From NCBI GenBank assembly GCA_006247105.1, contig VDLU01000006.1:1-29133 (forward strand): 29,133 bases of DNA, read 5' to 3'. The position numbers and the translations under genes were made by a program. Positions 4,485 to 29,133 of the stretch are shown here, piece after piece. How positions within the stretch are numbered: position 1 is the stretch's first letter; the number at the start of each line of letters is the position of its first letter. The notes under the pieces are model-generated. The model was not told the origin of the DNA, did no database searches, and saw only the letters and a list, made by a program, of their open reading frames with translations. Origin of the DNA: Giardia muris (Eukaryota; Fornicata; Diplomonadida; Hexamitidae).

Positions 4485-4528
<44 letters not shown>

Positions 4529-4578
4529 CCTTAGACGGGTGAACAATCCGACGCTTCCGCACCGATGCATGCGGACGG

Positions 4579-4622
<44 letters not shown>

Positions 4623-4624
4623 GG

Positions 4625-4668
<44 letters not shown>

Positions 4669-5113
4669 TCACCTCCACGCTCGGATTACCGGAGCGGTTG
4701 AAGGATCGTTAGGCCACGCTTTCACGGCAAGTACCGGGACAGGGGGTACTAGTCAAGTAAGCTTATGCCCTTATGCTCCACGTGAGGTTTCCGACCTCAC
4801 TGAGCTTACCATAGGACGCCTGCGGTGTGATCTAGCAGGCGCGCCGCCCCAGCCAAACTCCCCATCCGACCGTGTGCCGATGTAAGTCGGTGAGTGGGAT
4901 GGTGAACAACGTCAGGGTATCTCATGGAAGCGGCCTCCCCTGTATGCTGCACCGATGATCCCATCCCCCAGGATCGGATTGGAGTCAAGCTCAAAAGGGT
5001 CTTCTTGCCCCGCCGACCAACACCCGCCCGTTCCCGGGTCTGTAGGTTCACGGAGGCATGACTTGGGACAGTGGGATCCTCGTTGATCCATTCATGCACG
5101 TCGGAAATTACCC

Positions 5114-5165
<52 letters not shown>

Positions 5166-6887: not shown

Positions 6888-6944
6888 GGGGGGATCCTCA
6901 TCTCATTCCCCATCGTTCAACCCCTCGAACAACCCAGTTCGTAG
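6888..6944 (-). other. Internal transcribed spacer 2 (ITS2), approximate
   Basis: A stretch of only about 55 bp separates the 5.8S and LSU genes. Such short spacers are typical of Giardia. Boundaries are approximate because neither mature rRNA end is directly visible. Confidence 0.6.
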
Positions 6945-7068
6945 ATCACCCCACCACCCCGATGATCCATTCGAAGATCGATGTCACGTGCTTGGACCAC
7001 ATCGAGTATCGTCGTCAGCCACGTCCTTCATCGTCCCCCGAGCCAAGGCATCCACCGGGTCGCGTCAT
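6945..7068 (-). rRNA. 5.8S rRNA
   Basis: On the minus strand the sequence contains GGTGGATGCCTTGGCTC followed by CGATGAAGGACGTGGC, the hallmark 5.8S motifs. It lies between SSU and LSU in the usual order. Ends are estimated to within about 10-20 nt. Confidence 0.85.
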
Positions 7069-7103
7069 CTCATTGCCTTCATCCTCGTACCTTCCCTCTC
7101 GAT
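7069..7103 (-). other. Internal transcribed spacer 1 (ITS1), approximate
   Basis: About 35 bp lie between the SSU 3' end (GGATCC at 7104-7109 in complement) and the estimated 5.8S 5' end. Confidence 0.6.
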
Positions 7104-10670: not shown

Positions 10671-12206
10671 TCATCCAGTGGGCGTTCCAAGGCCCTGGGG
10701 GTGGTTGGTGAGCCTGCCCCCGACAGCAGCGAGGTTCTGGAGGAGGATCCTCTTCTCCTCCTCCACCTCCTCGAGGCGTCTCCGAAGGTCTTTCATGTCA
10801 TGGCCCTCGGTCCTCAATTGGGTAACCTCCTTCTCGAAGACGAGGTTCTGGGCCTTCTGGTCTGAAAGTGCTCTCTTGAGGTCCTCAGTGGTCTTGATGA
10901 GCTGCTCCTGAAGAGTCCCCTTCTCGGTGGTGAGGGAGTTGATGAGGGCTCGGTTCTGGTCAGAGGCCTTCTGGAGGTCCTCGTTCATCTTCGCATGCCT
11001 CTTGGACTCATCGATGGCATTGTCGAGCTGCTGTTTGAGGGAGGAGACTTCTGCAGTTAGCTGATCGATCTGAGCCTTGTCCTGTCGTTCCCTGTCCTCG
11101 AACTGTTCGTGGAGGGCGTCATTCTCTTCGTTGGTCTTGGAGAGTTGGACTTTGAGGGATGATATCTCTTGATTCATCTGGAAGAGCCTCTCCTCTGCTT
11201 CTTCTTGCGCCTTCTTGGAGGAGGATAGTTGCTCCTGGAGAGAAGTGTTCTCTGTGCGTAGGTGGGAGATCTTGTCGTCCTGCTTGAGTGTTGTGCTTTC
11301 CATCTCGGTGAGCTGATTCTTGAGAGAAGTGATCTCCCCCCTCGCCTCAGTAAGACTCTTCTCGGCCTCCTGTGCTCTCTTGTTCAGGGCCTCGTTCAGC
11401 TCGTGATTCTTCTTGGCCTCTTCGTTGGCCTTCTGGAACTGTTGTTTGAGAGAGAAGTTTTCTTGATTAGATTGGGTTAGCCTCCTCTCTTTCTCATCTA
11501 GGGCATTCTTGGAAGAGGAGAGGTCTTTCTTGAGAGACTCGTTTTCAGTGGTGAGTTCGTTGACACGATCCCGGAGCCCAGGTACTTCACTGAGGTTATG
11601 TGGCGGGGGGATTCGCTCTGTGCCCTCGTTCTCGAGGAGCTGACGGACTCGGGTGAAGTTGCCTCCCTTTGAACTATTCTTTGCATGCCATTTGGCCGTG
11701 TGACCTTTGGAGTCCTTCATTCCCTGTTCGCATGGAAGAAGGAGCTCAACAACCTCGGGGTAGTTGAAGTAGGCTGCGAGCATGAGAGCCGTGGTTCCGG
11801 GGTGGAAGGTAACCCTATTATGAGCTGAAGTGAACTTCCATTCCTCTGTCGTCTGCTTCCCGGCCTCAGACAGGAGGAGCCGGACGGAGTCTGTATTGCC
11901 ATTGGAGGCTGCTAGCATCAATGCGGTCCAGCTGTCGCCTTTCTGTTTTCCTACTTCATTCATAAGGAGAGGAATACAGTTGGCGTGGCCATCTCTTGCT
12001 GCATACATCAGTGCGGTCCACCCGTCATTTTCTTGTATCCCAATCTCCTTCTCGAGGAGGGGGATGCAATTGGCATGGCCTCCTCTTACTGCCCACATCA
12101 GGGCCGTCTTGCCATCTTCATCCTGCTTCCCGATCTGATTGAGGTTCCTTTTCACGCCCTCGAGGTCTCCTCTCCCGGCCGCCCTCATCAAACCCGTGAT
12201 GGACAT
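10671..12206 (-). CDS. Ankyrin-repeat protein with long coiled coil (Giardia Protein 21.1-like)
   Basis: This predicted 511-residue protein has ankyrin repeats at roughly residues 1-30, 33-62 (DGKTALMWAVRGGHANCIPL), 65-95, 97-130 and 143-175 (TALMLAAYFNYPEVVELLL). A continuous charged, Leu/Gln/Glu-rich coiled coil follows from about 215 to 495. No signal peptide or membrane segment is visible, so it is likely a cytoplasmic scaffold. Ankyrin-only and ankyrin/coiled-coil proteins form a large Giardia family often called Protein 21.1. Biochemical roles are mostly unknown. The start ATG at 12206 is preceded by an AT-rich tract, as expected for a Giardia gene. The frame is intact, in contrast to the broken copy at the right edge, which shares its ankyrin and coiled-coil sequence. 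The stop is TGA at 10671-10673. Family assignment is strong and function is unknown. Confidence 0.85.
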   Translation of the reverse strand: MSITGLMRAAGRGDLEGVKRNLNQIGKQDEDGKTALMWAVRGGHANCIPLLEKEIGIQENDGWTALMYAARDGHANCIPLLMNEVGKQKGDSWTALMLAASNGNTDSVRLLLSEAGKQTTEEWKFTSAHNRVTFHPGTTALMLAAYFNYPEVVELLLPCEQGMKDSKGHTAKWHAKNSSKGGNFTRVRQLLENEGTERIPPPHNLSEVPGLRDRVNELTTENESLKKDLSSSKNALDEKERRLTQSNQENFSLKQQFQKANEEAKKNHELNEALNKRAQEAEKSLTEARGEITSLKNQLTEMESTTLKQDDKISHLRTENTSLQEQLSSSKKAQEEAEERLFQMNQEISSLKVQLSKTNEENDALHEQFEDRERQDKAQIDQLTAEVSSLKQQLDNAIDESKRHAKMNEDLQKASDQNRALINSLTTEKGTLQEQLIKTTEDLKRALSDQKAQNLVFEKEVTQLRTEGHDMKDLRRRLEEVEEEKRILLQNLAAVGGRLTNHPQGLGTPTG

Positions 12207-12222: not shown

Positions 12223-12429
12223 TCCCCTTCACCAGCCTTCCACTGAGGCCCCCATCCGACACTCCGGGCATCCAACCACTACCAACGGCCTGTCCTGAGG
12301 ACGGGAGGCCCACAGCTCTCCTCGGGGTGCTCTCGTCCCTGGATGAGCTCCCACTGGTCATCAGTCTCCCCTTATAGCCCCCCAACCCCCTGGTGAGGAT
12401 CGGGCCCGTTCCCCTCTCGAGGACGAATG

Positions 12430-13579
12430 GTCTCTGACGAGAGCCGTGCCAGACAGAGAGAGGAGCCCACTGGCTTCCCGGGGACGGGTGCATCGATCTG
12501 GACGCCCCTCTGCTGTCGAGGGGATGCGAGATGGCGGGTCGGCCTTTTGAACCGGAGGAGAGGGAGCTGGGGCTCGGAAACATCCCCCACTCCTTTGATG
12601 GAGACATCGAGAGGGAAGGACGATCTCGATGAGGTCGGGGAGAGGAAGAAGGTGGCCGGACTGCACGGTGTGGCCGCACAGACTGCTTCCTCCTCTCAGA
12701 GGCGAACGAGGAAGGAGTGGACTCCCTCCCGGACCGCTCCCATGCTCCCAACATGCCACGACCACCCCGAGGTCGTCGAGCCCTCCTCCCCACGAGCGAG
12801 GAGTGGAGGACTCCGGGGGGCACGGGAATGGTGGTCTGGGGACAGGAGGCTCCTCAAGAGGGGACAGACCCATCCCCCTCCAGGGAGCCACCGACGTCCT
12901 TGGAGTCCGTCACAACTGGGGACGTCGGGGGAGTCAGGAACACTACACGTGGGCATCGAGACTCATGGGATGCAGCCCTGATGATGGCCGCCTCTCACGG
13001 ACGCCCCCCATCTGTCCGCCTGCTCCTTCCACTCGAGGGGGGGCTGTTCAACAACCGGAAGGAGACGGCCCTGCTGCTTGCACTCCAGGAGGGCCGGGTC
13101 GAGTGCAAGACTCCTGGCGGACGAGGCGGCAGTCCACGAAGGGGACGGAAGAATGCACATCGAGGGGATCCGAAGGCTTGTTCGGGAGTGGCCTGACTCA
13201 CTCTTCAAGGACGTATCGAGCAGTTGCAGATGCCCTGGAGGAGGCGGTCATGCGGAAGGTACGGGAGAGGCTGGAGATGCTCAACCCGCACCACGTCCTT
13301 GCCCTCCTGTCCCCAATCGAGCAGTCGGAGGCCCGGGAGCTCGGAGAGATGGTCTGGTCGGCACTCTTCTGCGAGCCCGGAGCACTGGACGACGCCTTCT
13401 GTGAGGACGAAATGGTTGACGGGTGCGTCGTCTGCCTCTCACGCCAGAAGGACGCGATCCTCCTTCCCTGCCGGCACCTCGTCGTCTGTGCGGACCGGAT
13501 CGAGCACTGCTGTCCGTACTGCCGGGGGAAGGCCGACGAGGCCCTTGTCGTCGAGTATCCTGAGTGGCCGGATGCGTAG
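12430..13579 (+). pseudogene. Ankyrin-RING protein gene, multiply frameshifted
   Basis: Protein 21.1-like ankyrin fragments appear in order but in changing frames. A repeat-like SIWTPLCCRGDARWRVGLL lies near 12500. HPEVVE near 12765 continues one frame over as PHERGVEDSGGH. DAALMMAASHGRPPSVRLLL at about 12970-13035 is followed by LLADEAAVH near 13110 in another frame. A final frame from about 13210 runs to the TAG at 13577. This last part ends in a C3HC4-type RING: CVVC, then LLPCRHLVVC, then CCPYC. RING domains of this kind are E3 ubiquitin ligases. The residue expected to be the next zinc ligand (C in CADC) is R here, which also argues for decay. At least four frameshifts separate the pieces. 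It runs toward the VSP array and ends 95 bp from the stop of unit A. The RING end is certain; the 5' limit is approximate. Confidence 0.7.
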
Positions 13580-13674
13580 CCATATGACCCCCTCTCCGGT
13601 CCATCCAGATGAGCTGGAGGTCTATAATGAGCTCGATGTCACCTCTCGCTCCAGGTCTCCCCTTCACCATTCAC

Positions 13675-15564
13675 TCACTTCCCCCTGCACCCGAACCACC
13701 AACCGAGGAAGCCCCCGAGGCCTCCCAGGACCAGCAGGACGGCAATGACGATCCCCGCAATGGCGCCCCCAGAGAGCCCCGAGGAGGAGGAGGAGGGGAC
13801 GGCACTGCACTTCCCGTCGGTCGGGGCACTCCCGTCCCAGCACGTGATGCAGGCCGAGGCGGAGCACGTCGTGCAGCCACTGGGGCAGGCCGTGCAGTCA
13901 GAGGAGGAGGTGACGGAGGTCGTGTTGTAGTACCCGAGACCGCAGGACGTGCAGGTGGTGGCAGAGGAGCATGCCCCACACCCGGCCGGACAGAGGGTGA
14001 AGACGCCTGAGGTCGTATTGAGAGGGAAGGGGGAGCCACTGGCAGCCTGAGAGCACTGACCATTGGAGGCCGATGAGCACAGCTTGCTCCCGACGGAGCC
14101 CGTGGTCGTGGGATAGCAGCCCCCCTCGAAGAGGAAGTAGGCCGTCGAGCAGTTCTCGCACCTCGTGGCGGTCCCGTCGACAGGAGTCTTCCCGTCGGCC
14201 TTCTTGCAGACGTCGTTGGTGGTCGTCCTCGAGATGGTCGAACTGACCTCGAGGCACGTCCCGTCGATCGGAACGCTTCCCTTCTTGCACTCCTTGCACA
14301 CCAGGGCCTCCCCGACGAGAAGCTGGTTGCTCCTGGCACAGAGGCCCGTCTTGTCCGCATCGAAGGAGGAGAGGCAGGAGGAGTTGGAGAGCATGCATCC
14401 GTTGAGGCAGGACGTGCAGGAGAAGGACGTGGAGTAGGTGCAGGTGTCGCAGTTCGCCTTCCCGTTCGTCGCGTCCCCGCAGAGGTAGAGCTTGGTGTCC
14501 TTGAGGAAGGCGATGGAGGTCGGGGTCGAGCAGGTCCCGTCTGCCGCCCGAGTCGTCATTGCACTGCACAGCTTGTTCCCGGGCTCCTTTGACTGGTTGT
14601 AGCACCCCCCGTTGAAGAGGAAGTGGGTGTTCGAGGACCCACAGGAGTCGCAGACCCCGACCTGGGTGTCCTCTTGGCTCGTCGTGCATGAGCTGGTCGG
14701 ATCGGCCCCCCCTTCCACCTTTATACACCTCCCGTCGACGGGGGCGAGCCCCTTCCCGCACTTACCGCAGAGGACCTCGGACCAGCCCGGGACGGAGAAG
14801 GACTCGAGGCAGATCCCGAGGCTCTTGAGGCTCTCGGGGCTGAAGCAGCCGTCGTGGAAGAAGAGGCTCCCCTCCTTGCAGGCCGTGCACTTCCCGGCGC
14901 TGGAGGCAGGAGTGCAGGAGGAGGCACTGTCCTTGGGGACGCACTTCCCGTCGACGGGGACGTGAGTGGTACCATTGCACTCGAGACACACGAAGCTGGT
15001 CCCGATCTGCATGCAGCTCTTGCAGTTCTCGTCCGATGAGCAGTTGACACAGGAGGTGATCGTTGGTGCCTCGAGGCTCTCCACGACAGGCCCGAACCCG
15101 GAGGCGCACTCCGTGCAGGTCGGCTTGTCGGCGGCGGGGGAGGTGCAGGTCTTGCAGTTGGGAACCCCGTTCGTCTTATCATCACAGGTGTAGAGGCCTG
15201 ATGGGTTGGAGTCGCTCCCCTTCACGAAGATGCCCGTCGCACCACTGGCCCTCTCTGAGCACTTCCCGTTCGATGCCGCCGAGCAGAGAGCAGCGCCCTC
15301 GCCTCCACTGGCCTGGTTGTAGCACCCCCCGTAGAAGAGGAAGTAGGTCCCTGTACATGCCGTGCAGACACCATTGGAACACGTGTTGCTCTCAATAGCC
15401 GAGCTGCACGTCCCGTCGATCGAGGCCTCGGTCGTGGTCGCGCACTCCTTGCAGACCCTCCCCAGCGTCCCGAGGTCGAGGCAGCTCCCCGTCTTGCTGT
15501 CGCCTGATGTCTCTCCTTCCGTGCACGAGAGGACTCTCGCGTTCTTCCCTCCCCCCTTCACCAT
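13675..15564 (-). CDS. VSP unit A: cysteine-rich surface protein, no signal peptide
   Basis: Predicted protein of 629 residues, rich in CxxC motifs, with GGCY motifs after YFLFY or YFLFE. It has a Ser-rich spacer, a membrane segment at about 600-624 (AIAGIVIAVLLVLGGLGG) and a cytoplasmic tail CRGK. This is the architecture of Giardia variant-specific surface proteins, which coat the trophozoite and are exchanged during antigenic variation. The ATG at 15564 is the junction ATG, 4 nt after the TGA of unit B. A run of six G keeps it in frame (MVKGGGKNAR). No hydrophobic signal peptide follows, so the product as written should not enter the secretory pathway. It is nearly identical to unit C, differing at about a dozen residues, and is the last unit of the array. 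I infer a silent or incomplete cassette despite the clean frame. Confidence 0.8.
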   Translation of the reverse strand: MVKGGGKNARVLSCTEGETSGDSKTGSCLDLGTLGRVCKECATTTEASIDGTCSSAIESNTCSNGVCTACTGTYFLFYGGCYNQASGGEGAALCSAASNGKCSERASGATGIFVKGSDSNPSGLYTCDDKTNGVPNCKTCTSPAADKPTCTECASGFGPVVESLEAPTITSCVNCSSDENCKSCMQIGTSFVCLECNGTTHVPVDGKCVPKDSASSCTPASSAGKCTACKEGSLFFHDGCFSPESLKSLGICLESFSVPGWSEVLCGKCGKGLAPVDGRCIKVEGGADPTSSCTTSQEDTQVGVCDSCGSSNTHFLFNGGCYNQSKEPGNKLCSAMTTRAADGTCSTPTSIAFLKDTKLYLCGDATNGKANCDTCTYSTSFSCTSCLNGCMLSNSSCLSSFDADKTGLCARSNQLLVGEALVCKECKKGSVPIDGTCLEVSSTISRTTTNDVCKKADGKTPVDGTATRCENCSTAYFLFEGGCYPTTTGSVGSKLCSSASNGQCSQAASGSPFPLNTTSGVFTLCPAGCGACSSATTCTSCGLGYYNTTSVTSSSDCTACPSGCTTCSASACITCWDGSAPTDGKCSAVPSSSSSGLSGGAIAGIVIAVLLVLGGLGGFLGWWFGCRGK

Positions 15565-15568
15565 TCAC

Positions 15569-17047
15569 TCACTTCCCCCTGCACCCGAACCACCAACCGA
15601 GGAAGCCCCCGAGGCCTCCCAGGACCAGCAGGACGGCGATGACGATCCCCGCAATGGCACCCCCAGAGAGCCCCGAAGAACTGGAGGAGGGGGGAGAGGG
15701 GCAGGTCCCATTGAAGGATGACCCGTCCCAGCAGGTCGTGCAGGCCGTCGTGTTGCATCCCGTGCAGCCCGAGTGGTAGATCGAGCACGCCTTGCAGTCG
15801 GGGGTGGCAGAAGCATTGGTGTTGGCGTTGTAGTACCCGAAGCCGCAGGACGTGCAGGTGACGGCACCGTTCGAGGAGGAGCAGGCCCCGCACCCCGGGA
15901 CCTTCGAGGAGCAGGAGACGATGTTACCATTGTCGAGGTAGAGGCCCGAGGTGGCATTGACAGCTGTGCAGACCCCATTAGAGGCCTTGGTGCAGGCGCT
16001 CTTCCCGACCTCCGTGGAGGCGTTGTAGCAGCCCCCGTTGAGGAGGAAGAAGCTGGATCCACCTGCGTCCTGGCACTTCCCGCACCTCGTGGAGGACGCG
16101 TCGGGGGCGGTTCCGTCCTCCTTCTGGCAGATCTGGGTCGCCCTCGTCACGTTCGTCGAGGCGACCAGAAGGCATTCTCCGTTGATCGGGACGAAGCCCG
16201 GCTTGCACTCGGAGCAGACCGTCGTGTTCCCGACCAGGAACTGCTTCTCCTTCGCACAGACGCCCAGCTCGGCGGCCTTGAAGGTCGAGTAGCATCCCTC
16301 GAGGTAGGGGACGTATCCATTGAGGCAGGACGTGCAGTGTCCGGAGGAGTCGGTGCAGACCTTCTTGGTGGTCTCGTTTGCAAGAACACACCCCCCGTCG
16401 ATCGGGACCTGACCAGTCGGACACTCGGTGCAGACGAGCCCCGGACCGAGGTTGGTGCAGGAGGTGCAGTTCTTGGGACAGGAGTCGCAGGACGTGATGA
16501 CAAGGGAGGAGTTGTAGGTCGGGCCGAAGGAGGGGAGGCAGACCTTGCAGATCTTCTCGTCCGTGTCGCACGTCTTGCAGTTCTGGATGGTACAGGCCTT
16601 GCAGGTCTTGCCAGTCTCTCCAACAAGGCCAAAGCCGGGAAGGCAGGTCTGACAGGTGAAGGTGGTTGAGGACGACTCGTAGGTGCACGTCCCGCAGTTC
16701 TCTTTTCCTCCCGCATCTGTCGAGTTGTCACTGCAGAGGTAGAGCTTACCTCCATTGACGAAGGTGATGGCATCCGTGGCCGCCGCAGTACAAGCACCAC
16801 TGGTGACGGTTGAGCAGAGCTTCTTCCCGACGTCACCCGTCTTGTTGTAGCACCCACCATAGAAGAGGAAGTAGTCCGTTCCTGTTCCACATCCTGTGCA
16901 GACACCATCGGCACAAGTAGCATCCGAGACAGTAGTAGTCGGATTCGCTGCACAAGCCCCATTGATCGGGGCCTGACTCGTGTCACTGCACTTCTTGCAG
17001 AACGTCCCCTCAACCCCCGGGATGGTGAAGGTCGAACCACCCCCGTC
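15569..17047 (-). pseudogene. VSP unit B: open frame without any ATG
   Basis: A 492-codon VSP frame with CxxC motifs, GGCY motifs (FFLLNGGCYN, YFLFYGGCYN), the common membrane anchor and CRGK runs without a stop from 17047 to the TGA at 15569-15571. I find no in-frame ATG anywhere in it. The only upstream in-frame ATG is the junction ATG at 17068, which hits an in-frame TGA at 17048-17050 after six codons. The N-terminal part begins GGGSTFTIPGVEGTFCKKC, shared with D and G. No signal peptide can be read. The frame is otherwise intact, so it looks like a preserved silent cassette rather than random decay. The C-terminal part is closely matched by D. Confidence 0.75.
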
Positions 17048-17068
17048 TCATCCTTCCCCCTTCACCAT
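17022..17068 (-). repeat. Inverted repeat around the B/C junction ATG
   Basis: On the minus strand ATGGTGAAGG (17059-17068), including the junction ATG, is followed 27 nt later by its exact inverse CCTTCACCAT (17022-17031). The 10-bp stem would sequester the ATG. The second arm is inside unit B and encodes FTI of the STFTIPG motif. Confidence 0.7.
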
Positions 17069-17072
17069 TCAC

Positions 17073-18965
17073 TCACTTCCCCCTGCATCCGAACCACCAA
17101 CCGAGGAAGCCCCCGAGGCCTCCCAGCACCAGCAGGACGGCGATGACGATCCCCGCAATGGCACCCCCCGAGAGCCCCGAGGAGCTGGAGGAGGGGACGG
17201 CACTGCACTTCCCGTCGGTCGGGGCACTCCCGTCCCAGCACGTGATGCAGGCCGAGGCGGAGCACGTCGTGCAGCCACTGGGGCAGGCCTTGCAGTCAGA
17301 GGAGGAGGTGACGGAGGTCGTGTTGTAGTACCCGAGACCGCAGGACGTGCAGGTGGTGGCAGAGGAGCATGCCCCACACCCGGCCGGACAGAGGGTGAAG
17401 ACGCCTGAGGTCGTATTGAGAGGGAAGGGGGAGCCACTGGCAGCAGTAGTGCACTGACCATTGGAGGCCGATGAGCACAGCTTGCTCCCGACGGAGCCCG
17501 TGGTCGTGGGATAGCAGCCCCCCTCGAAGAGGAAGTAGGCCGTCGAGCAGTTCTCGCACCTCGTGGCGGTCCCGTCGACAGGAGTCGTCCCGTCGGCCTT
17601 CTTGCAGACGTCGTTGGTGGTCGTCCTCGAGATGGTCGAACTGACCTCGAGGCACGTCCCGTCGATCGGAACGCTTCCCTTCTTGCACTCCTTGCACACC
17701 AGGGCCTCCCCGACGAGAAGCTGGTTGCTCCTGGCACAGAGGCCCGTCTTGTCCGCATCGAAGGAGGAGAGGCAGGAGGAGTTGGAGAGCATGCATCCGT
17801 TGAGGCAGGACGTGCAGGAGAAGGACGTGGAGTAGGTGCAGGTGTCGCAGTTCGCCTTCCCGTTCGTCGCGTCTCCGCAGAGGTAGAGCTTCCCGTCCTT
17901 GAGGAAGGCGATGGAGGTCGAGGTCGAGCAGGTCCCGTCTGCCGCCCGAGTCGTCATTGCACTGCACAGCTTGTTCCCGGGCTCCTTTGACTGGTTGTAG
18001 CACCCCCCGTTGAAGAGGAAGTGGGTGCTCGAGGACCCACAGGAGTTGCAGACCCCGACCTGAGTTCCATCTTGGCTCGTCGTGCATGAGCTGGTCTGAT
18101 CGGCCTTCCCCCCTTCCACCTTTATACACCTCCCGTCGACGGGGGCGAGCCCCTTCCCGCACTTACCGCAGAGGACCTCGGACCAGCCCGGGACGGAGAA
18201 GGACTCGAGGCAGATCCCGAGGCTCTTGAGGCTCTCGGGGCTGAAGCAGCCGTCGTGGAAGAAGAGGCTCCCCTCCTTGCAGGCCGTGCACTTCCCGGCG
18301 CTGGAGGCAGGAGTGCAGGAGGAGGCACTGTCCTTGGGGACGCACTTCCCGTCGACGGGGACGTGAGTGGTACCATTGCACTCGAGACACACGAAGCTGG
18401 TCCCGATCTGCATGCAGCTCTTGCAGTTCTCGTCCGATGAGCAGTTGACACAGGAGGTGATCGTTGGTGCCTCGAGGCTCTCCACGACAGGCCCGAACCC
18501 GGAGGCGCACTCCGTGCAGGTCGGCTTGTCGGCGGCGGGGGAGGTGCAGGTCTTGCAGTTGGGAACCCCGTTCGTCTTATCATCACAGGTGTAGAGGCCT
18601 GATGGGTTGGAGTCGCTCCCCTTCACGAAGATGCCCGTCGCACCACTGGCCCTCTCTGAGCACTTCCCGTTCGATGCCGCCGAGCAGAGAGCAGCGCCCT
18701 CGCCTCCACTGGCCTGGTTGTAGCACCCCCCGTAGAAGAGGAAGTAGGTCCCTGTACATGCCGTGCAGACACCATTGGAACACGTGTTGCTCTCAATAGC
18801 CGAGCTGCACGTCCCGTCGATCGAGGCCTCGGTCGTGGTCGCGCACTCCTTGCAGACCCTCCCCAGCGTCCCGAGGTCGAGGCAGCTCCCCGTCTTGCAG
18901 TCGCCTGATGTCTCTCCTTCCGTGCACGAGAGGACTCTCGCGTTCTTCCCTCCCCCCTTCACCAT
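17073..18965 (-). CDS. VSP unit C: cysteine-rich surface protein, no signal peptide
   Basis: Predicted 630-residue VSP, nearly the twin of unit A. Differences include GDC for GDS near residue 22, a one-residue insertion near the middle (GGKADQTSSC against GGADPTSSC), CTTAASG against CSQAASG, and CKACPSG against CTACPSG. Many changes match other units (F or G), which suggests exchange between them. The start is the junction ATG at 18965, in frame through a six-G run, 4 nt after the TGA of unit D. The membrane segment and CRGK tail are intact. As with A, the N-terminus is polar (MVKGGGKNARVLSC) and lacks a signal peptide, and no AT-rich initiator precedes it because unit D coding sequence lies immediately upstream. 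Confidence 0.8.
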   Translation of the reverse strand: MVKGGGKNARVLSCTEGETSGDCKTGSCLDLGTLGRVCKECATTTEASIDGTCSSAIESNTCSNGVCTACTGTYFLFYGGCYNQASGGEGAALCSAASNGKCSERASGATGIFVKGSDSNPSGLYTCDDKTNGVPNCKTCTSPAADKPTCTECASGFGPVVESLEAPTITSCVNCSSDENCKSCMQIGTSFVCLECNGTTHVPVDGKCVPKDSASSCTPASSAGKCTACKEGSLFFHDGCFSPESLKSLGICLESFSVPGWSEVLCGKCGKGLAPVDGRCIKVEGGKADQTSSCTTSQDGTQVGVCNSCGSSSTHFLFNGGCYNQSKEPGNKLCSAMTTRAADGTCSTSTSIAFLKDGKLYLCGDATNGKANCDTCTYSTSFSCTSCLNGCMLSNSSCLSSFDADKTGLCARSNQLLVGEALVCKECKKGSVPIDGTCLEVSSTISRTTTNDVCKKADGTTPVDGTATRCENCSTAYFLFEGGCYPTTTGSVGSKLCSSASNGQCTTAASGSPFPLNTTSGVFTLCPAGCGACSSATTCTSCGLGYYNTTSVTSSSDCKACPSGCTTCSASACITCWDGSAPTDGKCSAVPSSSSSGLSGGAIAGIVIAVLLVLGGLGGFLGWWFGCRGK

Positions 18966-18969
18966 TCAC

Positions 18970-20541
18970 TCACTTCCCCCTGCACCCGAACCACCAACCG
19001 AGGAAGCCCCCGAGGCCTCCCAGGACCAGCAGGACGGCGATGACGATCCCCGCAATGGCACCCCCAGAGAGCCCCGAAGAACTGGAGGAGGGGGGAGAGG
19101 GGCAGGTCCCATTGAAGGATGACCCGTCCCAGCAGGTCGTGCAGGCCGTCGTGTTGCATCCCGTGCAGCCCGAGTGGTAGATCGAGCACGCCTTGCAGTC
19201 GGGGGTGGCAGAAGCATTGGTATTGGCGTTGTAGTACCCGAAGCCGCAGGACGTGCAGGTGACGGCACCGCTCGAGGAGGTGCAGGCCCCGCACCCCGGG
19301 ACCTTCGAGGAGCAGGAGACGAGGACGTTGTTGTCGAGGTAGAGGCCCGAGGTGGTATTGACAGCTGTGCAGACCCCATTAGAGGCCGTGGTGCAGGCGC
19401 TCTTCCCGACCTCCGTGGAGGCGTTGTAGCAGCCCCCGTTGAGGAGGAAGAAGTTAGTGTTCGAGGACCCGGTCACGTCCTGGCACTTCCCGCACCTCGT
19501 GGAGGACGCGTCGGGGGCGCTTCCGTCCTCCTTCTGGCAGATCTGGGTCGCCCTCGTCACGTTCGTCGAGGCGACCAGAAGGCATTCTCCGTTGATCGGG
19601 ACGAAGCCCGGCTTGCACTCGGAGCAGACCGTCGTGTTCCCGACCAGGAACTGCTTCTCCTTCGCACAGACGCCCAGCTCGGCGGCCTTGAAGGTCGAGT
19701 AGCATCCCTCGAGGTAGGGGACGTATCCATTGAGGCAGGACGTGCAGGTGCCGGAGGAGTCGGTGCAGACCTTGTCGTTCTTATCCACGCACGTCCCGTC
19801 GATCGGGGCCTGATCAGTCTGACACTCGGTGCAGACGAGCCCCGGACCGAGGTTGGTGCAGGAGGTGCAGTTCTTGGGACAGGAGTCGCAGGACGTGATG
19901 GCAAGGGAGGAGTTGTAGGTCGGGCCGAAGGAGGGGAGGCAGGCCTTGCAGATCTTCTCGTCCTTGTCGCACGTCTTGCAGTTCTGGACGGTACAGGCCT
20001 TGCAGGTCGAGTCAACAAGGCCGAAGCCGGGGCTGCAGGCGGAGCAGGTGTTCTCAGCACTCACCTGGGCACAGTTGGAGCACTTGGTGGTGTCACTACA
20101 GGAGACGCAGCTCCCGTCGGTCTTGGGGAGGTAGTCCTTGGCACAGGAGGTGCACTTGAAGGTGGTCGAGTCATAGGTGCAGGTCTCGCAGTTCGCCTTC
20201 CCGTTCGTGCTGTCACTGCAGAGGTAGAGGATGTCACTCTTGACGAAGGTGACCGCGTCCTTGTCCGGGGCAGCTGTGCACTTCCCCCCGGTGGCCGTCT
20301 TGCAGAGCTTGTTCCCGGGAGAGGTGTCCGTCTTGTAGCACCCCCCGTTGAAGAGGAAGTACGGATCTGGGCAGGCCGTGCAGGCACCACTACCACAAGT
20401 AGCACCAGTTCCAATCGTGGTGGCCGCAGCAGTGTCACAGAGCCCGTTGACAGGGGCGGAGTCAGTGTTAGTCGAGACATCGCACTTCTTGCAGAACGTC
20501 CCCTCAACCCCCGGGATGGTGAAGGTCGAACCACCCCCGTC
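18970..20541 (-). pseudogene. VSP unit D: open frame without any ATG
   Basis: A 523-codon open VSP frame ends with the shared anchor and CRGK at 18970. As in B, I see no methionine codon in the entire frame. The junction ATG at 20562 is in frame but meets TGA at 20542-20544. Order of parts: STFTIPGVEGTFCKKC N-terminus, a GGCY domain (YFLFNGGCYK), CxxC repeats, SFGPTYNSS, a second GGCY domain (FFLLNGGCYN), the CTTCWDGSSF region, a Ser-rich spacer, membrane segment and tail. The C-terminal two-thirds match B closely. The N-terminal third differs in sequence but keeps the same layout, as expected for mosaic exchange. Confidence 0.75.
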
Positions 20542-20562
20542 TCATCCTTCCCCCTTCACCAT
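20516..20562 (-). repeat. Inverted repeat around the D/E junction ATG
   Basis: The arms are ATGGTGAAGG (20553-20562 on minus) and CCTTCACCAT (20516-20525), with a 27-nt loop, the same arrangement as at the B/C junction. Confidence 0.7.
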
Positions 20563-20566
20563 TCAC

Positions 20567-22555
20567 TCACTTCCCCCTGCATCCGAACCACCAACCGAGG
20601 AAGCCCCCGAGACCTCCCAGGACCAGCAGGACGGCGATGACGATCCCCGCAATGGCACCCCCAGAGAGCCCCGAGAAGGACGAAGAAGACCCCGAGACGC
20701 TGTCGGGAGCACAGACCGAGGGAGTGCCGGTCGGGGCCTGTCCGTTCGCACAGAGGGTGCAGGCGGTGGCTCCTGTGCACCCCACGCAGTTATCGATGAC
20801 CGTCGAGCAAGCCTTGCAGGAGTTGGAGTCGGAGTAGTGTCCGAAGACACAGCCTCCGGTGCACGTCTTCCCGTCTGTTCCGCAGTCATTGCATCCATTC
20901 GAGCAGGGGACGAGGCCCTTCGAGCCGTCCTTGTAGAAGCCGGAGTTCGAGGCGGGCGTCGTGCAGCCTCCATTGTTGTCGGCCGTGGTGCAGACCTTCT
21001 GACCGAGTGTGTCATCGGTCGAGTAGCACCCCCCGTTGAGGAGGAAGTACTTCCCGTTGCTGTCATTGCACCCCGAGCAGGCCGTCCTCCCCCCGTTGGG
21101 GACGCAGTTCGACTCTCCCAACCGGGACGACGGGAGGGCCGTGCAGGTCCCGTTGATGGGGACGCTTCCAGTCGGACACTCGGAACAGACGAGGCTCTCC
21201 CCGATAAGGAAGGTCTTCCCGTCCGCACAGAGCCCGAAGGCGTCCGAGTTCCGAGGGCTGTAGCAACCACCGCTGGCCGGCATGAAGCCCCCCTTGCAGC
21301 CCGAGCAGACCCCACTCGAGGCTGTGCAGACCCCGGCGTATCCTGTCGCCTCCTCGCACCTCCCGTTGATCGGAACGTCGTTCGTTCCGCACTTCGTCGC
21401 CACGGCCCGGCCCCCGAGAAGCGCGCAGGTCACAACTCCTTGCAGGCCCCCGTCCTCGAGGCAGGACAGGAGGCTCGTCCCGTTCAGATAGAGGCCATCT
21501 CCGGGCTTGGTGCAGAGGCCCCCGGAGGCGGACGAGCACTGGTCGGAGTATGTAGTGGTCGTGTAGCAGCCCCCCTTGAAGAGAAAGTGGGTGTCGGCAC
21601 ACTTCGTGCAGGCGCCCCCGCTCTTCTCGGTGCATGCAGTAGCGCTCTCTGTGCACGCCTCGTCGACGGGATACTTCCCCGTCTTGCACTGGGAGCAGAC
21701 GACCTTCGTCCCGAAGGCGGCGTACTTCTCGCAGTCCTGAACTCCGTCGTGCTGGAGACATCCGATGATCTCCGTCCCCCTCTTGACCGTCAGGGCGTCG
21801 TTCCCGCAGGCCGTGCACTGAACCCCTCCGTCCTTGGCCGTGCATGTCTGACAATTCTCGACACCTCCTGGGGCCGTCGAGCAACTGAGGCAGGCCGATG
21901 AGGCGATAACGAAGCCATCGAGACAGACTGAACAGGAGGAGGCCGTGCACGTCTTGCAGCCCGAGGAGCAGGCCTTGCATGATTTGTCGGTCGAGTCGAG
22001 GAAGTAGCCAGACTTGCACTCTGAGCAGGCGGAGGAGGAGCACGTCTTGCAATTGGTGTCGGTGCAAGCTGTGCATGTATTGCTATCGAAGTAGTAGCCC
22101 TCGTCACAAGAGTCGCAGTGAGTGGCCGAGGTCGAGCACGTCTTGCAGGTCGAGTCGCAGAGAGAGCAAGCATCAGTCGTCGCAGTCGCAGCAGCATTCG
22201 GGAAGAGCCCGTCTCCGCACGTCGTGCACTTGAAGGTGTCAGTGGCATCCGTTGCCGTGCAGACGGGGCTGCCGGCCTTAGCCTCGTAGCAGCCCCCCTG
22301 GAAGAGGACGTAGCCATTTCCGCAGTTCCCGCACTTCGTTGCACTGTCCTCAAGCTCAGTGCTGGCATCCTTCTTGCATGCTGCTTTAGTAGTGTCGTCC
22401 ACTGCTGCGCAGTTTCCATTGATGGGGACGTTCCCCGCATCGCACTCCGTGCAGACCTGCGTGCTCCCGAACTTCAGGCACTTGTTCGTTCCGCAGTTCG
22501 TTATGGCAGGACTGCAGGCAGCCGGAGCGGGAGCGGCTCGAGCCTTCCCTCCCCT
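20567..22555 (-). pseudogene. VSP unit E: long open frame lacking a usable start
   Basis: A 662-codon open VSP frame from 22555 to the TGA at 20567. The junction ATG at 22562 is out of frame because the G run after it is four, not six, long as in A and C. In the VSP frame, a TGA (22556-22558) lies directly upstream. The first in-frame ATG is deep inside, at about 21283. The N-terminus (GKARAAPAPAACSPAITNC) looks like the start of a mature VSP with its signal peptide missing. Many CxxC motifs follow, with GGCY at YVLFQGGCYE, HFLFKGGCYT and YFLLNGGCYS, then the common anchor and CRGK. Together with H it forms a distinct subtype whose distal Cys region (CVGCTGATACTLC) differs from the other units. 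Confidence 0.75.
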
Positions 22556-22566
22556 TCACCATTCAC

Positions 22567-24468
22567 TCACTTCCCCCTGCATCCGAACCACCAACCGAGG
22601 AAGCCCCCGAGACCTCCCAGGACCAGAAGGACGGCAATGACGATCCCCGCAATGGCACCCCCCGAGAGCCTGGAAGAACTGGAGGAGGGGACGGCACTGC
22701 ACTTCCCGTCGGTCGGAGCACTCCCGTCCCAGCACGTGATGCAGGCCGAGGCGGAGCACGTCGTGCAGCCACTGGGGCAGGCCTTGCAGTCAGAGGAGGA
22801 GGCGACGGAGGTCGTGTTGTAGTACCCGAGACCGCAGGACGTGCAGGCGGTCGCGTTCGTGCAGGCCCCACAACCGGCCGGACAGAGGGTGAAGACGCCA
22901 CTGGAGAGGGGGAAGGGGGAGCCATTGGCAGCCTGAGAGCACTGACCATTGGAGGCCGATGAGCACAGCTTACTCCCGACGGAGTTCGGAGTCACGGGGT
23001 AGCAGCCCCCCTCGAAGAGGAAGTAGGTCGTCGAGCAGTTCTCGCACCTCGTGGCGGTCCCGTCGACAGGAGTCTTCCCGTCGGCCTTCTTGCAGACGTC
23101 GTTGGTGGTCGTCCTCGAGATGGTCGAACTGACCTCGAGGCACGTCCCGTCGATCGGAACACTTCCCTTCTTGCACTCCTTGCACACCAGGGCCTCCCCG
23201 ACGAGAAGCTGGTTGCTCCTGGCACAGAGGCCCGTCTTGTCCGCATCGAAGGAGGAGAGGCAGGAGGAGTTGGAGAGCATGCATCCGTTGAGGCAGGACG
23301 TGCAGGAGAAGGACGTGGAGTAGGTGCAGGTGTTGCAGTTCGCCTTCCCGTTCGTCGCGTCCCCGCAGAGGTAGAGCTTGGTGTCCTTGAGGAAGGCGAT
23401 GGAGGTCGGGGTCGAGCAGGTCCCGTCTGCCGTCCGAGTCGTCATTGCCGTGCACAGCTTGTTCCCGACCCCCTTTGACTGGGCATAGCACCCCCCGTTG
23501 AAGAGGAAGTGGGTGCTCGAGGACCCACAGGAGTTGCAGACCCCGACCTGAGTTCCATCTTGGCTCGTCGTGCATGAGCTGGTCGAATCGGCCCCCCCTT
23601 CCACCTTCAGACACCTCCCATCGACGGGGGCGAGCCCCTTCCCGCACTTACCGCAGAGGACCTCGGACCAGCCCGGGACGGAGAAGGACTCGAGGCAGAT
23701 CCCGAGGCTCTTGAGGCTCTCGGGGCTGAAGCAGCCGTCGTGGAAGAAGAGGCTCCCCTCCTTGCAGGCCGTGCACTTCCCGGAGTTGGCGTCCGGGGTG
23801 CAGGAGGAGGCACTGTCCTTGAGGACGCACTTCCCGTCGACGGGGACGTGAGTGTTAGCATTGCACTCGAGACACACGAAGCTGGTCCCGATCTGCATGC
23901 AGCTCTTGCAGTTCTCGTTCGATGAGCAGCTGACGCAGGAGGTGATCGTTGGTGCATCGAGGCTCTCCACGACAGGCCCGAACCCGGAGGCGCACTCCGT
24001 GCAGGTCGGCTTGTCGGCGGCGGGGGAGGTGCAGGTCTTGCAGTTGGGAACCCCGTTCGTCTTATCATCACAGGTGTAGAGGCCTGAGGGGTTGGAGTCG
24101 CTCCCCTTCACGAAGATGCCCGTCGCAGTATCAGCCCTCTCTGAGCACTTCCCGTTCGATGCCGTCTTGCAGAGAGCAGCGCCCTCGCCTCCACTGGCCT
24201 GGTTGTAGCACCCCCCGTAGAAGAGGAAGTAGTTGTTGGACCCACTGCCTGCATTGCAGTCCGTGCAGGCCCCATTGTTGCCCTTCGTACAATGATCCGT
24301 CGCCTCTGTTGGGGCCTTGCACGTCCCGTCGATCGAGGCCTGGTTCGTGTCACTGCACTCCTTGCATACCTTCCCCAGCGTCCCGAGGTCGAGGCAGCTC
24401 CCCGTCTTGCAGTCGCCTGACGCACCTCCTTCCGTACACGAGAGGGCCCTCGCGTTCTTCCCTCCCCT
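22567..24468 (-). pseudogene. VSP unit F: long open frame lacking a usable start
   Basis: A 633-codon open VSP frame from 24468 to the TGA at 22567. The N-terminus (GGKNARALSCTEGGASGDCK) is homologous to A and C. The junction ATG at 24475 is out of frame because of a four-G run. TGA occupies 24469-24471 in the VSP frame and the first in-frame ATG is near 23899 (SCMQIGTSF). The middle and C-terminal parts match A, C and especially G: both F and G have YAQSKGVGNKL and CYPVTPNSVGSKL where A and C have YNQSKEPGNKL and CYPTTTGSVGSKL. Anchor and CRGK are intact. Confidence 0.75.
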
Positions 24469-24479
24469 TCACCATTCAC

Positions 24480-26444
24480 TCACTTCCCCCTGCATCCGAA
24501 CCACCAACCGAGGAAGCCCCCGAGACCTCCCAGGACCAGCAGGACGGCGATGACGATCCCCGCAATGGCACCCCCCGAGAGCCTGGAAGAACTGGAGGAG
24601 GGGACGGCACTGCACTTCCCGTCGGTCGGGGCACTCCCGTCCCAGCACGTGATGCAGGCCGAGGCGGAGCACGTCGTGCAGCCACTGGGGCAGGCCTTGC
24701 AGTCAGAGGAGGAGGCGACGGAGGTCGTGTTGTAGTACCCGAGACCGCAGGACGTGCAGGCGGTCGCGTTCGTGCAGGCCCCACAACCGGCCGGACAGAG
24801 GGTGAAGACGCCACTGGAGAGGGGGAAGGGGGAGCCATTGGCAGCAGTAGTGCACTGACCATTGGAGGCCGATGAGCACAGCTTGCTCCCGACGGAGTTC
24901 GGAGTCACGGGGTAGCAGCCCCCCTCGAAGAGGAAGTAGGTCGTCGAGCAGTTCTCGCACCTCGTGGCGGTCCCGTCGACAGGAGTCTTCCCGTCGGCCT
25001 TCTTGCAGACGTCGTTGGTGGCCGTCCTCGAGATGGTCGAGCTGACCTCGAGGCACGTCCCGTCGATCGGAACGCTTCCCTTCTTGCACTCCTTGCACAC
25101 CAGGGCCTCCCCGACGAGAAGCTGGTTGCTCCTGGCACAGAGGCCCGTCTTGTCCGCATCGAAGGAGGAGAGGCAGGAGGAGTTGGAGAGCATGCATCCG
25201 TTGAGGCAGGACGTGCAGGAGAAGGACGTGGAGTAGGTGCAGGTGTTGCAGTTCGCCTTCCCGTTCGTCGCGTCCCCGCAGAGGTAGAGCTTGGTGTCCT
25301 TGAGGAAGGCGATGGAGGTCGGGGTCGAGCAGGTCCCGTCTGCCGTCCGAGTCGTCATTGCCGTGCACAGCTTGTTCCCGACCCCCTTTGACTGGGCATA
25401 GCACCCCCCGTTGAAGAGGAAGTAGGTGCTCGAGGACCCACAGGAGTTGCAGACCCCGACCTGGGTGTCCGCCTGGCTCGTCGTGCATGAGCTGGTCGGA
25501 TCGGCCGTCCCCCCTTCCACCTTTATACACCTCCCGTCGACGGGGGCGAGCCCCTTCCCGCACTTACCGCAGAGGACCTCGGACCAGCCCGGGACGGAGA
25601 AGGACTCGAGGCAGATCCCGAGGCTCTTGAGGCTCTCGGGGCTGAAGCAGCCGTCGTGGAAGAAGAGGCTCCCCTCCTTGCAGGCCGTGCACTTCCCGGC
25701 ATTGGAGGCAGGAGTGCAGGAGGAGGCACTGTCCTTGAGGACGCACTTCCCGTTGACGGGGACGTGAGTGGCATCCTTGCACTCGAGACACACGAAGCTG
25801 GTCCCGATCTGCATGCAGCTCTTGCAGTTCTCGTTCGATGAGCAGTTGACGCAGGAGGTGATCGTTGGTGCATCGAGGCTCTCCACGACAGGCCCGAACC
25901 CGGAGGCGCACTCGGAGCAGGCGGAGGAGGAGCACGTCTTGCAGTTCTGGATGGTGCAGGCCGTGCAGTTGACGGGACCGGTGGTGGCGTTGGGGTAGAA
26001 GCCCTCGAGGCACGAGTTGCAGGTGAGGGCTGAGTTGGTCGAGTCGTAGGTGCAGGTGCTGCAGCCCGATGCCCCGTTTGTCGCATCGCTACAGAGGTAG
26101 AGGTTGCTGTCCTTGACGAAGGTGATGGCATCGGTAGTTGGAGCCGTCTTGCAGGTTCCATCCTTTGTATCCTGGAGGGCGGAGCACAGCTTACTCCCAA
26201 CCCCCTGTGTCTGGTCATAACAGCCTCCCTCGAACAGGAAGTAGGTGCTGGAAGTAAGGTCTCCTCCGCTACTGGTCGCTTTGCAGTCCGTGCAGGCCCC
26301 CTTGCTATCCGACGTGCAGTGGTCCGTATTTGCATCTGGAGTCCCACACTTCCCATCGATCGGGGCCTGGTTCGTGTCACTGCACTTCTTGCAGAACTCT
26401 CCATCAACCCCCGGGATGGTGAAGGTCGAACCACCCCGTCTCAT
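24480..26444 (-). CDS. VSP unit G: mosaic cysteine-rich surface protein, no signal peptide
   Basis: Predicted 654-residue VSP with many CxxC and several GGCY motifs, Ser-rich spacer, membrane segment and CRGK. The ATG at 26444 lies 20 nt after the TGA of unit H and 16 nt downstream of the junction ATG. It is in frame because the second G run is four long (five in B and D). The first residues (MRRGGSTFTIPGVDGEFC) contain no hydrophobic stretch. The N-terminal third resembles B and D (STFTIPG, FCKKC), while from about ASGFGPVVESL onward (plus coordinate near 25912) the sequence matches A, C and F. This is a clear recombination mosaic. It is the longest unit with an in-frame start, but it has neither signal peptide nor visible promoter. 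Confidence 0.8.
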   Translation of the reverse strand: MRRGGSTFTIPGVDGEFCKKCSDTNQAPIDGKCGTPDANTDHCTSDSKGACTDCKATSSGGDLTSSTYFLFEGGCYDQTQGVGSKLCSALQDTKDGTCKTAPTTDAITFVKDSNLYLCSDATNGASGCSTCTYDSTNSALTCNSCLEGFYPNATTGPVNCTACTIQNCKTCSSSACSECASGFGPVVESLDAPTITSCVNCSSNENCKSCMQIGTSFVCLECKDATHVPVNGKCVLKDSASSCTPASNAGKCTACKEGSLFFHDGCFSPESLKSLGICLESFSVPGWSEVLCGKCGKGLAPVDGRCIKVEGGTADPTSSCTTSQADTQVGVCNSCGSSSTYFLFNGGCYAQSKGVGNKLCTAMTTRTADGTCSTPTSIAFLKDTKLYLCGDATNGKANCNTCTYSTSFSCTSCLNGCMLSNSSCLSSFDADKTGLCARSNQLLVGEALVCKECKKGSVPIDGTCLEVSSTISRTATNDVCKKADGKTPVDGTATRCENCSTTYFLFEGGCYPVTPNSVGSKLCSSASNGQCTTAANGSPFPLSSGVFTLCPAGCGACTNATACTSCGLGYYNTTSVASSSDCKACPSGCTTCSASACITCWDGSAPTDGKCSAVPSSSSSRLSGGAIAGIVIAVLLVLGGLGGFLGWWFGCRGK

Positions 26445-26460
26445 CCTTCCCCTTCACCAT
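26416..26460 (-). repeat. Inverted repeat around the G/H junction ATG
   Basis: The arms are ATGGTGAAGG (26451-26460 on minus) and CCTTCACCAT (26416-26425), with a 25-nt loop. Here the loop contains the ATG of unit G (26444). Confidence 0.7.
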
Positions 26461-26464
26461 TCAC

Positions 26465-27640
26465 TCACTTCCCCCTGCATCCGAACCACCAACCGAGGAA
26501 GCCCCCGAGGCCTCCCAGGACCAGCAGGACGGCAATGACGATCCCCGCAATGGCACCCCCCGAGAGCCCCGAGGAGGACGAAGAAGACCCCGAGACGCTG
26601 TCGGGAGCACAGACCGAGGGAGTGCCGGTCGGGGCCTGTCCGTTCGCACAGAGGGTGCAGGCGGTGGCTCCTGTGCACCCCACGCAGTTATCGATGACCG
26701 TCGAGCAAGCCTTGCAGGAGTTGGAGTCGGAGTAGTGTCCGAAGACACAGCCTCCGGTGCACGTCTTCCCGTCTGTTCCGCAGTCATTGCATCCATTCGA
26801 GCAGGGGACGAGGCCCTTCGAGCCGTCCTTGTAGAAGCCGGAGTTCGAGGCGGGCGTCGTGCAGCCTCCATTGTTGTCGGCCGTGGTGCAGACCTTCTGA
26901 CCGAGTGTGTCATCGGTCGAGTAGCACCCCCCGTTGAGGAGGAAGTACTTCCCGTTGCTGTCATTGCACCCCGAGCAGGCCGTCCTCCCCCGTTGGGGAC
27001 GCAGTTCGACTCTCCCAACCGGGACGACGGGAGGGCCGTGCAGGTCCCGTTGATGGGGACGCTTCCAGTCGGACACTCGGAACAGACGAGGCTCTCCCCG
27101 ATAAGGAAGGTCTTCCCGTCCGCACAGAGCCCGAAGGCGCCCGAGTTCGAGGACTGTAGCAACCACCGCTGGCCGGCATGAAGCCCCCTTGCAGCCCGAG
27201 CAGACCCACTCGAGGCTGTGCAGACCCCGGCGTATCCTGTCGCCTCCTCGCACCTCCCGTTGATCGGAACGTCGTTCGTTCCGCACTTCGTCGCCACGGC
27301 CCGGCCCCCGAGAAGCGCGCAGGTCACAACTCCTTGCAGGCCCCCGTCCTCGAGGCAGGACAGGAGGCTCGTCCCGTTCAGATAGAGGCCATCGGGAATC
27401 GTCGAGCAACGAGGGCTGGGAAGCACGTCTTGCAGGTCTTGGGACTGCTGTCGAAGTGGTCCCTCACAGGTACACTTGGAGGCGTCAGTCTTATCCATTC
27501 CCTTGCAGACGGGGTCGAGCTGATATGGTAGCAGCCCGAAGAGGACGTCTTCAGCCCTGCACGTCGTTGCAGTGCCATCGGAGGGGAGGAGTAGGGGCGG
27601 TTTAGCCCGCTGTGACAGGCACTTCAGGTCCTGCCTGTTC
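26465..27640 (-). pseudogene. VSP unit H: frameshifted VSP remnant, homologous to E
   Basis: The C-terminal VSP portion is homologous to unit E from YLNGTSLLSCLEDGG to CRGK. Compared with E, at least four single-base losses are visible: ttcgagg for ttccgagg near 27145, a shorter C run near 27186, a shorter C run near 27207, and five C instead of six near 26994. The final frame (TACSGCNDSNGKYFLLNGGC to CRGK) is restored only from about 26990 on. Upstream (about 27400-27640) only eroded VSP-like sequence remains, resembling the E N-terminus (for example DPVCKGMDKTDASKCTC). The remnant joins without a break to coiled-coil sequence of the neighbouring ankyrin gene remnant. It is the 5'-most unit of the array and the most decayed. 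Confidence 0.8.
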
Positions 27641-29133
27641 AAGGAGTCAGGGTCCTGGCCTTTGGGAGTGAGGACCATGCTCCCGACGGCAGCGAGGTTC
27701 TGGAGGAGGATCCTCTTCTCCTCCTCCACTTCCTCGAGGCGTCTCCGAAGGTCTTTCATATCATGGCTCTCGGTCCTCAATTGGGCAACCTCCTTCTCGA
27801 GGACGAGGTTCTGGGCCTTTTGGTCTGCGAGTGCTCTCTTGAGGTCCTCAGTGGTCTTGGAGAGCTGCTCCTGAAGGGTCGCCTTCTCTGTGGTGAGGGC
27901 CTGCTTCTGGTCAGAGGCCTTCTGGAGGTCCTCGTTCATCTTCGCATGCCTCTTGGACTCATCGATAGCATTGTCGAGCTGCTGTTGAGAGAGGAGACTT
28001 CTGCAGTTAGCTGATCGATCTGAGCCTTGTCCTGTCGTTCCTTGTCCTCTAACTGTTGTGGAGGGAGTTCTTCTCCTCGTTGGTCTTGGCGAGCTGGGCT
28101 TTGAGACTGTCGATAAGGGCAGCATTCTTCTTCTGCTCATTCTTCCCTTCCTCGACTTGCTTCTGAAGCCCAGTCACTTCATTAATGAGGCCACGACAAC
28201 ACTCCTCAGACTGGGAGAGCTGGGTCACCACCCTGCTTCGTTCCTCCCCGTCTCTCGCAGTTGTCGTCTGCTATTCTCCAACTCCCTTTTGGTTGCATCC
28301 AAGACGTTTTGTCGTTCAGCATTTTCCCTTTGAAGCTGCTCAACACGTGCACGGGCCTCGCTGGCCTCATTGCGGGCGAGTCTACGATCTTCTTCGGTGT
28401 TGGCGAGCTGCTGTTGTAGCTGCCCAATATGGTCTTCGAGGGCGGTACTGCCTTCCTTGAGTGCTGAAAATTCATCAGTAAGCTCATTGTGCTGCTTCTC
28501 GTTCTCCCTCAGGGTGTCTTCCAATATCCGAATGTGTCCATCTTTTTCATCGATGTCGGCCCGTAAGCTCGTATTGACTGTTTCAGTTCCTCGAGGTCCT
28601 TTTCCATCTGGGACAGCTTCCTTTCCGTCTCATTGTGTGCATTCTTGGAAGAGGAGAGATCACTCTTGAGGGAGTCGTTCTCAGTGGCGAGTTCGCTAAC
28701 ACGATACTGTAGTATAAGTAGTTCAGGATCCGGTGGGGGAAGTCGTTCTGTTCCTTCGTTCTTGAGGAGCTGACGGACTCGAGTGAAGTCACCTATCTTT
28801 GTGCTGTTGTTCGCATGCCATTGAGCATTATGACCATTAGAATCCTTCATTCCCTGTTCGTAGGGGAGAAGGAGTTCAACGACATCGGGATGGTTCTGGT
28901 GGGCTGCGAGCATGAGTGCGGTTGTTCCGGGAGGATAAGTGTTGAGAAGGCCCTTCCATTCCTCTGTCGTCTGCTTTCCTGCCTCAGAGAGGAGGAGTCG
29001 AACACAGTCTGCATTTCCCCCTGTGACAGCATACATCAACGCAGTCCATCCTCTGTTGTCCTGCATCCCGATCTCCCTCTCAAGTAGGGGGATGCAGTTG
29101 GCGTGGCCATTAATTACAGCCCACATCAGGGCC
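27641..29133 (-). pseudogene. Ankyrin/coiled-coil gene, frameshifted copy, 5' end beyond window
   Basis: This homologue of the intact gene at 10671-12206 has ankyrin repeats in the right part (GWTALMYAVTGGNADCVRLL, GTTALMLAAHQNHPDVVELL; 28509-29133, open to the window edge). Coiled-coil pieces follow in successive frames: to about 28575; about 28575-28225; 28231-28049; and from about 27990 leftward (QQQLDNAIDESKRHAKMNED to RILLQNLAAVG near 27680). At least four frameshifts separate them. Two are visible as single-base losses against the intact copy (near 28060 and 27987). The last coiled-coil frame reads on into the VSP H remnant. Whether any part is expressed is unknown. Confidence 0.8.

Follow-up and report, generated by a model that had tools for sequence, protein, structure and literature searches.

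A probable telomere-side linear array of VSP cassettes without signal peptides in Giardia muris

Layout of the array and its flanks

The DNA that we analysed (the window, 29,133 bp) is the whole of one Giardia muris contig, C33. Its minus strand carries eight VSP units head to tail, as the original prediction had stated, and thus a linear array (more than three units), which runs from 13675 to about 27393. Each unit ends at the lower of its two coordinates. The last unit, on the rDNA side (13675..15564, 629 codons), has a NAR-LSC head, an open frame, a Pfam VSP domain (PF03302) and a GCRGK tail; the unit at 17073..18965 (630 codons, NAR-LSC head) is its near duplicate. Two units have GGSTFT heads: the one at 15569..17047 (492 codons) has an in-frame TGA between the junction ATG and the body, and the one at 18970..20541 (523 codons) is its relative. 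Further upstream lie a unit with an ARAAPAPA head (20567..22555, 662 codons), a third NAR-LSC unit that is identical on the overlapping contig C34 (22567..24468, 633 codons), a chimera-like unit (24480..26453, 657 codons) and a 5'-truncated unit, H, which keeps the 3' 0.93 kb of an ARA-class unit (26465..27393). The array has the VSP domain and the GCRGK tail, with Pfam scans on three of the eight units; all three open units scanned (13675, 20567 and 24480) gave VSP, and no Pfam family was found in the frame scanned across unit H (26461-28140).

Seven of the eight units are open VSP bodies without a signal peptide, each open up to 25 nt or less from the preceding stop. The tight spacing originally described is real, but several units lack any in-frame start. 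Directly after each of the eight window stops comes GTGAATGGTGAAGGGG and then, inside the array, a head. Our wider sample held 126 unit ends in fetched DNA, against 218 exact tail-pattern matches genome-wide (9.74-Mb assembly, 52 contigs) and 265 published; GTGAAT follows the stop in 122 of the 126. The AGTGAAT at the unit stops presumably fits the published poly(A) signal consensus. A putative poly(A) signal is described as overlapping the stop in most genes (PMC7641422). Array-internal units were open in 84 of 90 sampled cases (C34 contributes two of the 90, both duplicates of window units). Three head types occur inside the arrays, and the 84 open units divide into 40 NAR-LSC, 28 GGSTFT and 16 ARA; an in-frame Met precedes the first Cys in 21 of them. 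Three units elsewhere (C3:1294106, C4:3353 and C6:5056) have a frame break 222 nt from the stop. One of these is the last and one the second to last in its own array, and with 96-121 substitutions between them none is a recent copy of another.

The unit at 24480 looks like a mosaic of other silent units, judging by its identity profile without a permutation test. Its first 150 alignment columns are 90% like unit 18970, columns 150-600 are close to neither 18970 nor 22567 (53-71%), and after column 600 it is 93-100% like unit 22567. At least one window unit would then be a chimera formed within the silent set.

H had been described as a wreck fused to a dead ankyrin gene. Its 5' truncation and its junction with an ankyrin-type gene stand, but the five further breaks in its frame are specific to this contig: they are single-base deletions absent from C34, where H is open. 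C34 matches C33 at 99.88% across 6,866 bp. Each of the eight gaps in H and the DNA just before it is sequence missing from C33; seven are single bases, and five of the eight lie in one-base runs. Because the assembly was built from PacBio reads with indels corrected by Illumina (PMC7641422), the five breaks are likely to be consensus errors. Upstream of H, on the same strand, lies a piece of an ankyrin-repeat gene with a coiled-coil-like stretch (27449..29133; Pfam Ank at 28509-29126).

This piece would place H within a longer series. The terminal 1,691 bp of contig C3 (C3:1295020-1296710) match 27449-29133 end to end at 99.6%, with no mismatches and six gap letters, and C34 aligns at constant coordinate offsets with C33 as well as with the C3 right array. 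The right end of C3 bears a further array in the same orientation, so the array probably extends beyond H, taken before as its 5'-most unit. The likely order, read from these overlaps, is the C3 array, the ankyrin gene, H and the window array, the RING and ankyrin genes, and the rDNA.

On the tail side, the 3' flank of the last unit (13610..13674, minus strand) was compared with those of two intact VSPs (C2:1192035 and C4:959922) over 59 and 70 nt, and it is identical to both. Beside the array tail come a RING-finger open frame (12629..13579, plus strand) and an ankyrin-repeat open frame of 511 codons (10671..12206, minus strand). Past the tail, window 1-8533 holds an rDNA repeat on the minus strand: 18S (7101..8533), 5.8S (6919..7066) and 28S (4212..6892) genes and a partial 18S gene of a further repeat (1..970). 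A 73-bp tandem repeat (3.9 copies, 1262-1545) lies between the two rRNA units. The distal flank is common to C2 left (99.3%), C2 right (100%) and C5 left (99.8%); C5:1-2600 equals window 11250-13851 at 99.8%. The rDNA past the tail, the C2 and C5 flanks and the C3 overlap together point to a position near a chromosome end, with the tail toward the end. Since these ends share sequence, we can only infer placement at the right end of chromosome 3. Telomere repeats within the window were considered and rejected: the contig has no run of three or more.

Signal peptides, start sites and reading frames

None of the eight units begins with a hydrophobic signal peptide, as predicted. Within their first 60 residues the highest 12-residue hydropathy mean does not exceed 1.02, whereas 13 intact VSPs give 2.69-2.93. 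One signal-peptide DNA pattern is found 15 times in the genome and a second one 5 times, and neither is found in the window with up to three mismatches; four further intact copies lie at C2:2034-2066 kb. We examined 14 of the 26 published intact VSPs (16 distinct at 98%). The ARAAPAPA head of unit 20567 resembles the mature N-terminus of one intact class. As this head resembles the residues just past the signal peptide, what is missing is the signal peptide and everything before it.

The lack of an AT-rich initiator, on which the original prediction also relied, proved a poor criterion, since in 9 of 13 intact VSPs the AT content of the 40 nt ahead of the ATG is only 30-38%. Members of one intact class have similar upstream DNA. 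In the first class (nine genes), mean ungapped identity is 0.98 over the first 25 nt and 0.66 and lower beyond (indels count against it); in the second (four genes), it is 1.00 over 75 nt. AT-rich upstream DNA occurs in the second class only, so live genes cannot be told from silent ones by AT content.

We weighed whether the units might be expressed after all, through stop read-through or a trans-spliced signal-peptide leader. Their open frames and cysteine pattern would fit such expression, and trans-spliced introns exist in Giardia (PMC7641422). The reading frames speak against it. Of 90 sampled junctions, 88 have the common start (the other two differ), and the frame of their ATG is spread 29/30/29 over the three possibilities; unit lengths modulo three, and with them the frames of successive units, are spread 29/30/31, and none of the seven steps between window units is in frame. 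Because successive frames are unrelated, neither the junction ATG nor read-through could serve all units, and we rejected both the ATG as a start and a read-through polyprotein. A trans-spliced leader was rejected as well: the window has no acceptor-like site (judged by an acceptor consensus) and no published cleavage motif. In addition, published RNA-seq of three stages showed essentially all units of this kind to be non-transcribed (PMC7641422). Expression of the units is therefore highly improbable.

We also looked for a NAR-type gene that bears a signal peptide. Four of five further NAR-type loci (L055, L056, L058 and L059) lack one, judged by eye over the first 170 residues; the fifth, L057, has no match to the tail pattern. 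Solitary or first units at nine loci (L035, L040, L042, L043, L044, L047, L055, L056 and L058) have one common upstream context, an open frame ...LGTIDRSSGRAVPEIDVLEGS... with small differences, which is not a signal peptide.

Sequence sharing with intact VSPs and cysteine conservation

The original prediction expected intact VSPs to be patchworks of these eight units. This expectation failed for the 14 distinct intact VSPs that we examined: once the last 300 nt are set aside, no 150-nt segment of any of the eight reaches 85% identity to one of them (H was compared through its last 1,000 nt). A protein search with unit 17073-18965, which scored the 7,983 candidates sharing most words, pointed the same way. 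Among the candidates scored, the three best are named pVSP and are 86-92% identical over 99-100% of the unit, whereas matches named 'VSP protein' cover 40-76% at 45-63% identity. The close relatives are named 'pVSP [Giardia muris]', which together with the GCRGK tail points to G. muris as the host, not G. duodenalis. The body types in the window have no close counterpart with a signal peptide among those examined, so donation from them is possible but not visible.

A minority of other signal-less units behaves differently. In our sample, 14 of 113 share a 150-nt segment of at least 95% with 13 intact VSPs outside the last 300 nt, and 99 do not. Patchworks of the kind expected of a silent donor archive are seen for this minority and not for the window's eight. 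In the 13 intact VSPs, the first three 150-nt windows are 0-85% identical to signal-less units, and many later windows are 95-100% identical, to different units. Over the body, the best single unit averages 52-94% identity and the per-window best, which can only be higher, 70-97%; relative to the best single one, the gain in mean window identity from combining units, which cannot be negative, was 2 to 32 points. In ten intact VSPs, 8 to 17 of the 19 to 23 windows reach 97%; in three MLV-class ones, 0, 1 and 3 of 16 do. Among the long tracts, C2:588846 matches a unit of the C3 right array at 96.6% over 1,000 nt, and C3:599947 matches C2:896343 at 97.7% over 991 nt.

In permutation tests the top-ranked triplet gave 0/20,000 for all 14 VSPs; each had been picked from 2,064 triplets, and full correction would need more than 20,000 permutations. 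The parents were 13 of the 14 exchanging units, one near-identical unit being omitted. We discarded a first triplet ranking, which was dominated by whole-gene similarity and in which several top triplets were non-significant (up to 12,648/20,000). For several VSPs both parents are less than 80% alike, which indicates old shuffling. Window identities and permutation tests together support segmental exchange, in either direction, between some silent units and intact VSPs.

Could the window units themselves be an active silent donor archive that feeds expression-site VSPs by segmental gene conversion? Such a role would gain from the long tracts (92-97.7%) that intact VSPs share with a subset of other units, from the mosaic structure of the intact VSPs in our tests, and from the shared 3' tail, a possible homology arm. 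Homology arms on both sides of the body were not found, however: the 3' tail is common, but the first 150-nt window of the eight units has no match to 13 VSPs in seven units and 73% in one. With no body shared by any of the eight, nothing visible marks the window units as having recently supplied the intact VSPs examined, and we think it rather unlikely that they act as such an archive. As 99 of the 113 sampled units share no body segment at 95% with 13 intact VSPs either, a donor function is unseen for most of the store.

The units could instead be plain dead duplicates: tandem-amplified pseudogenes without a role, open only because their amplification is recent. Several observations fit this. 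A full-length relative of at least 96% exists for 58 of 88 array units; 27 of 42 indels between neighbours, junction runs and five broken-member pairs included, have lengths not divisible by three; among singleton variants there is no cysteine effect (NAR p=0.56, GGS p=0.14); and the units are reported as non-transcribed (PMC7641422). Older variation tells against it. In 30 NAR units, synonymous:nonsynonymous variants are 11:3 in Cys codons versus 105:255 elsewhere (p=2.6e-4), and in 12 GGS units 12:2 versus 65:237 (p=1.3e-6); eight intact VSPs give 34:3 versus 149:503. The tests used the open units more than 85% like the hub (30 of 40 NAR, 12 of 28 GGS); only 4 of 16 ARA units qualified, and the Cys table was made for NAR and GGS. 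Synonymous variation in Cys codons is much like that in other codons and nonsynonymous variation is rare; at equal base and codon position, Cys codons vary far less (T1, 5/128 versus 44/169, p=8e-8). Isolated differences between nearest neighbours (33 open pairs; 486 clustered differences skipped) comprise 103 nonsynonymous and 93 synonymous, against a neutral ratio of ~2.7:1, with one Cys replacement versus ~18 expected. That the units are dead duplicates is possible, though on balance we doubt it.

These counts hint that cysteine codons are conserved in the signal-less units; the older variants could also have taken shape while a signal peptide was still present, or have been imported by exchange. 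Most such units, including these eight, might then form a separately maintained store of bodies with no signal-peptide-bearing counterpart in this genome, keeping the Cys framework while signal-less, a reading that we consider quite unlikely. If true, it would mean that these units are not pseudogenes and that the store is used rarely or in an unsampled state.

Interpretation and comparison with known systems

Taken together, these results make it probable that the locus is a telomere-side linear array of VSP cassettes without signal peptides in G. muris, as described in 2020. Such an array may have grown by tandem duplication and by exchange between chromosome ends. It would not be expressed as it stands, judging by the published transcription data (PMC7641422), and may hold body segments in reserve. 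Only a minority of such units share long body segments with the small set of intact VSPs. The array is settled as a published system, with species and details corrected. If the split holds between a small exchanging set and a large set without an expressible counterpart, two stated views can be put to the test: one has the arrays supplying the expressed VSPs, the other has them evolving under relaxed pressure.

Trypanosome VSG, Anaplasma msp2 and Mycoplasma vlhA genes have silent donor stores for segmental gene conversion. The window array resembles these stores in its clustered, promoterless silent copies; it differs in that none of the intact genes examined is a patchwork of its units and in having almost no shared 5' arm.

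The linear vsp arrays of G. lamblia WB (PMC2996952), as presented in 2010, also run head to tail with short or no intergenic DNA, and their downstream members lack an initiator and were suggested to be recombination cassettes or discarded genes. The first member of a G. lamblia array often has an initiator and upstream non-coding DNA; the window has no such unit, H being truncated against an ankyrin-type gene.

The core finding is an already known system, the psiVSP array of G. muris (Xu et al. 2020, PMC7641422), with the cassette idea in PMC2996952; the signal-less array reading agrees with the published account and was not new. PMC7641422 describes an assembly of 9.8 Mbp in 59 contigs with 265 VSP homologues, 239 of them without signal peptide ('psiVSPs'). 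It assigns 183 psiVSPs to 17 linear arrays and finds such genes close to nine of the ten main-contig ends, the tail of the terminal part always facing the chromosome terminus. The window matches in its GCRGK tail, absent signal peptides, linear arrangement, tail toward the end, rDNA as found near ends, and relatives named pVSP. Added here are the segment null for the window units, the frame spread, the analysis of H, the overlap with the C3 right end, the rDNA beyond the tail, and the Cys counts. Exchange between psiVSPs and the 26 complete VSPs was inferred there from relaxed clustering in a tree, whereas we find close shared segments in a minority and none in the window array. And where PMC7641422 speaks of relaxed evolutionary pressure, the older variation among these units largely spares the cysteines.
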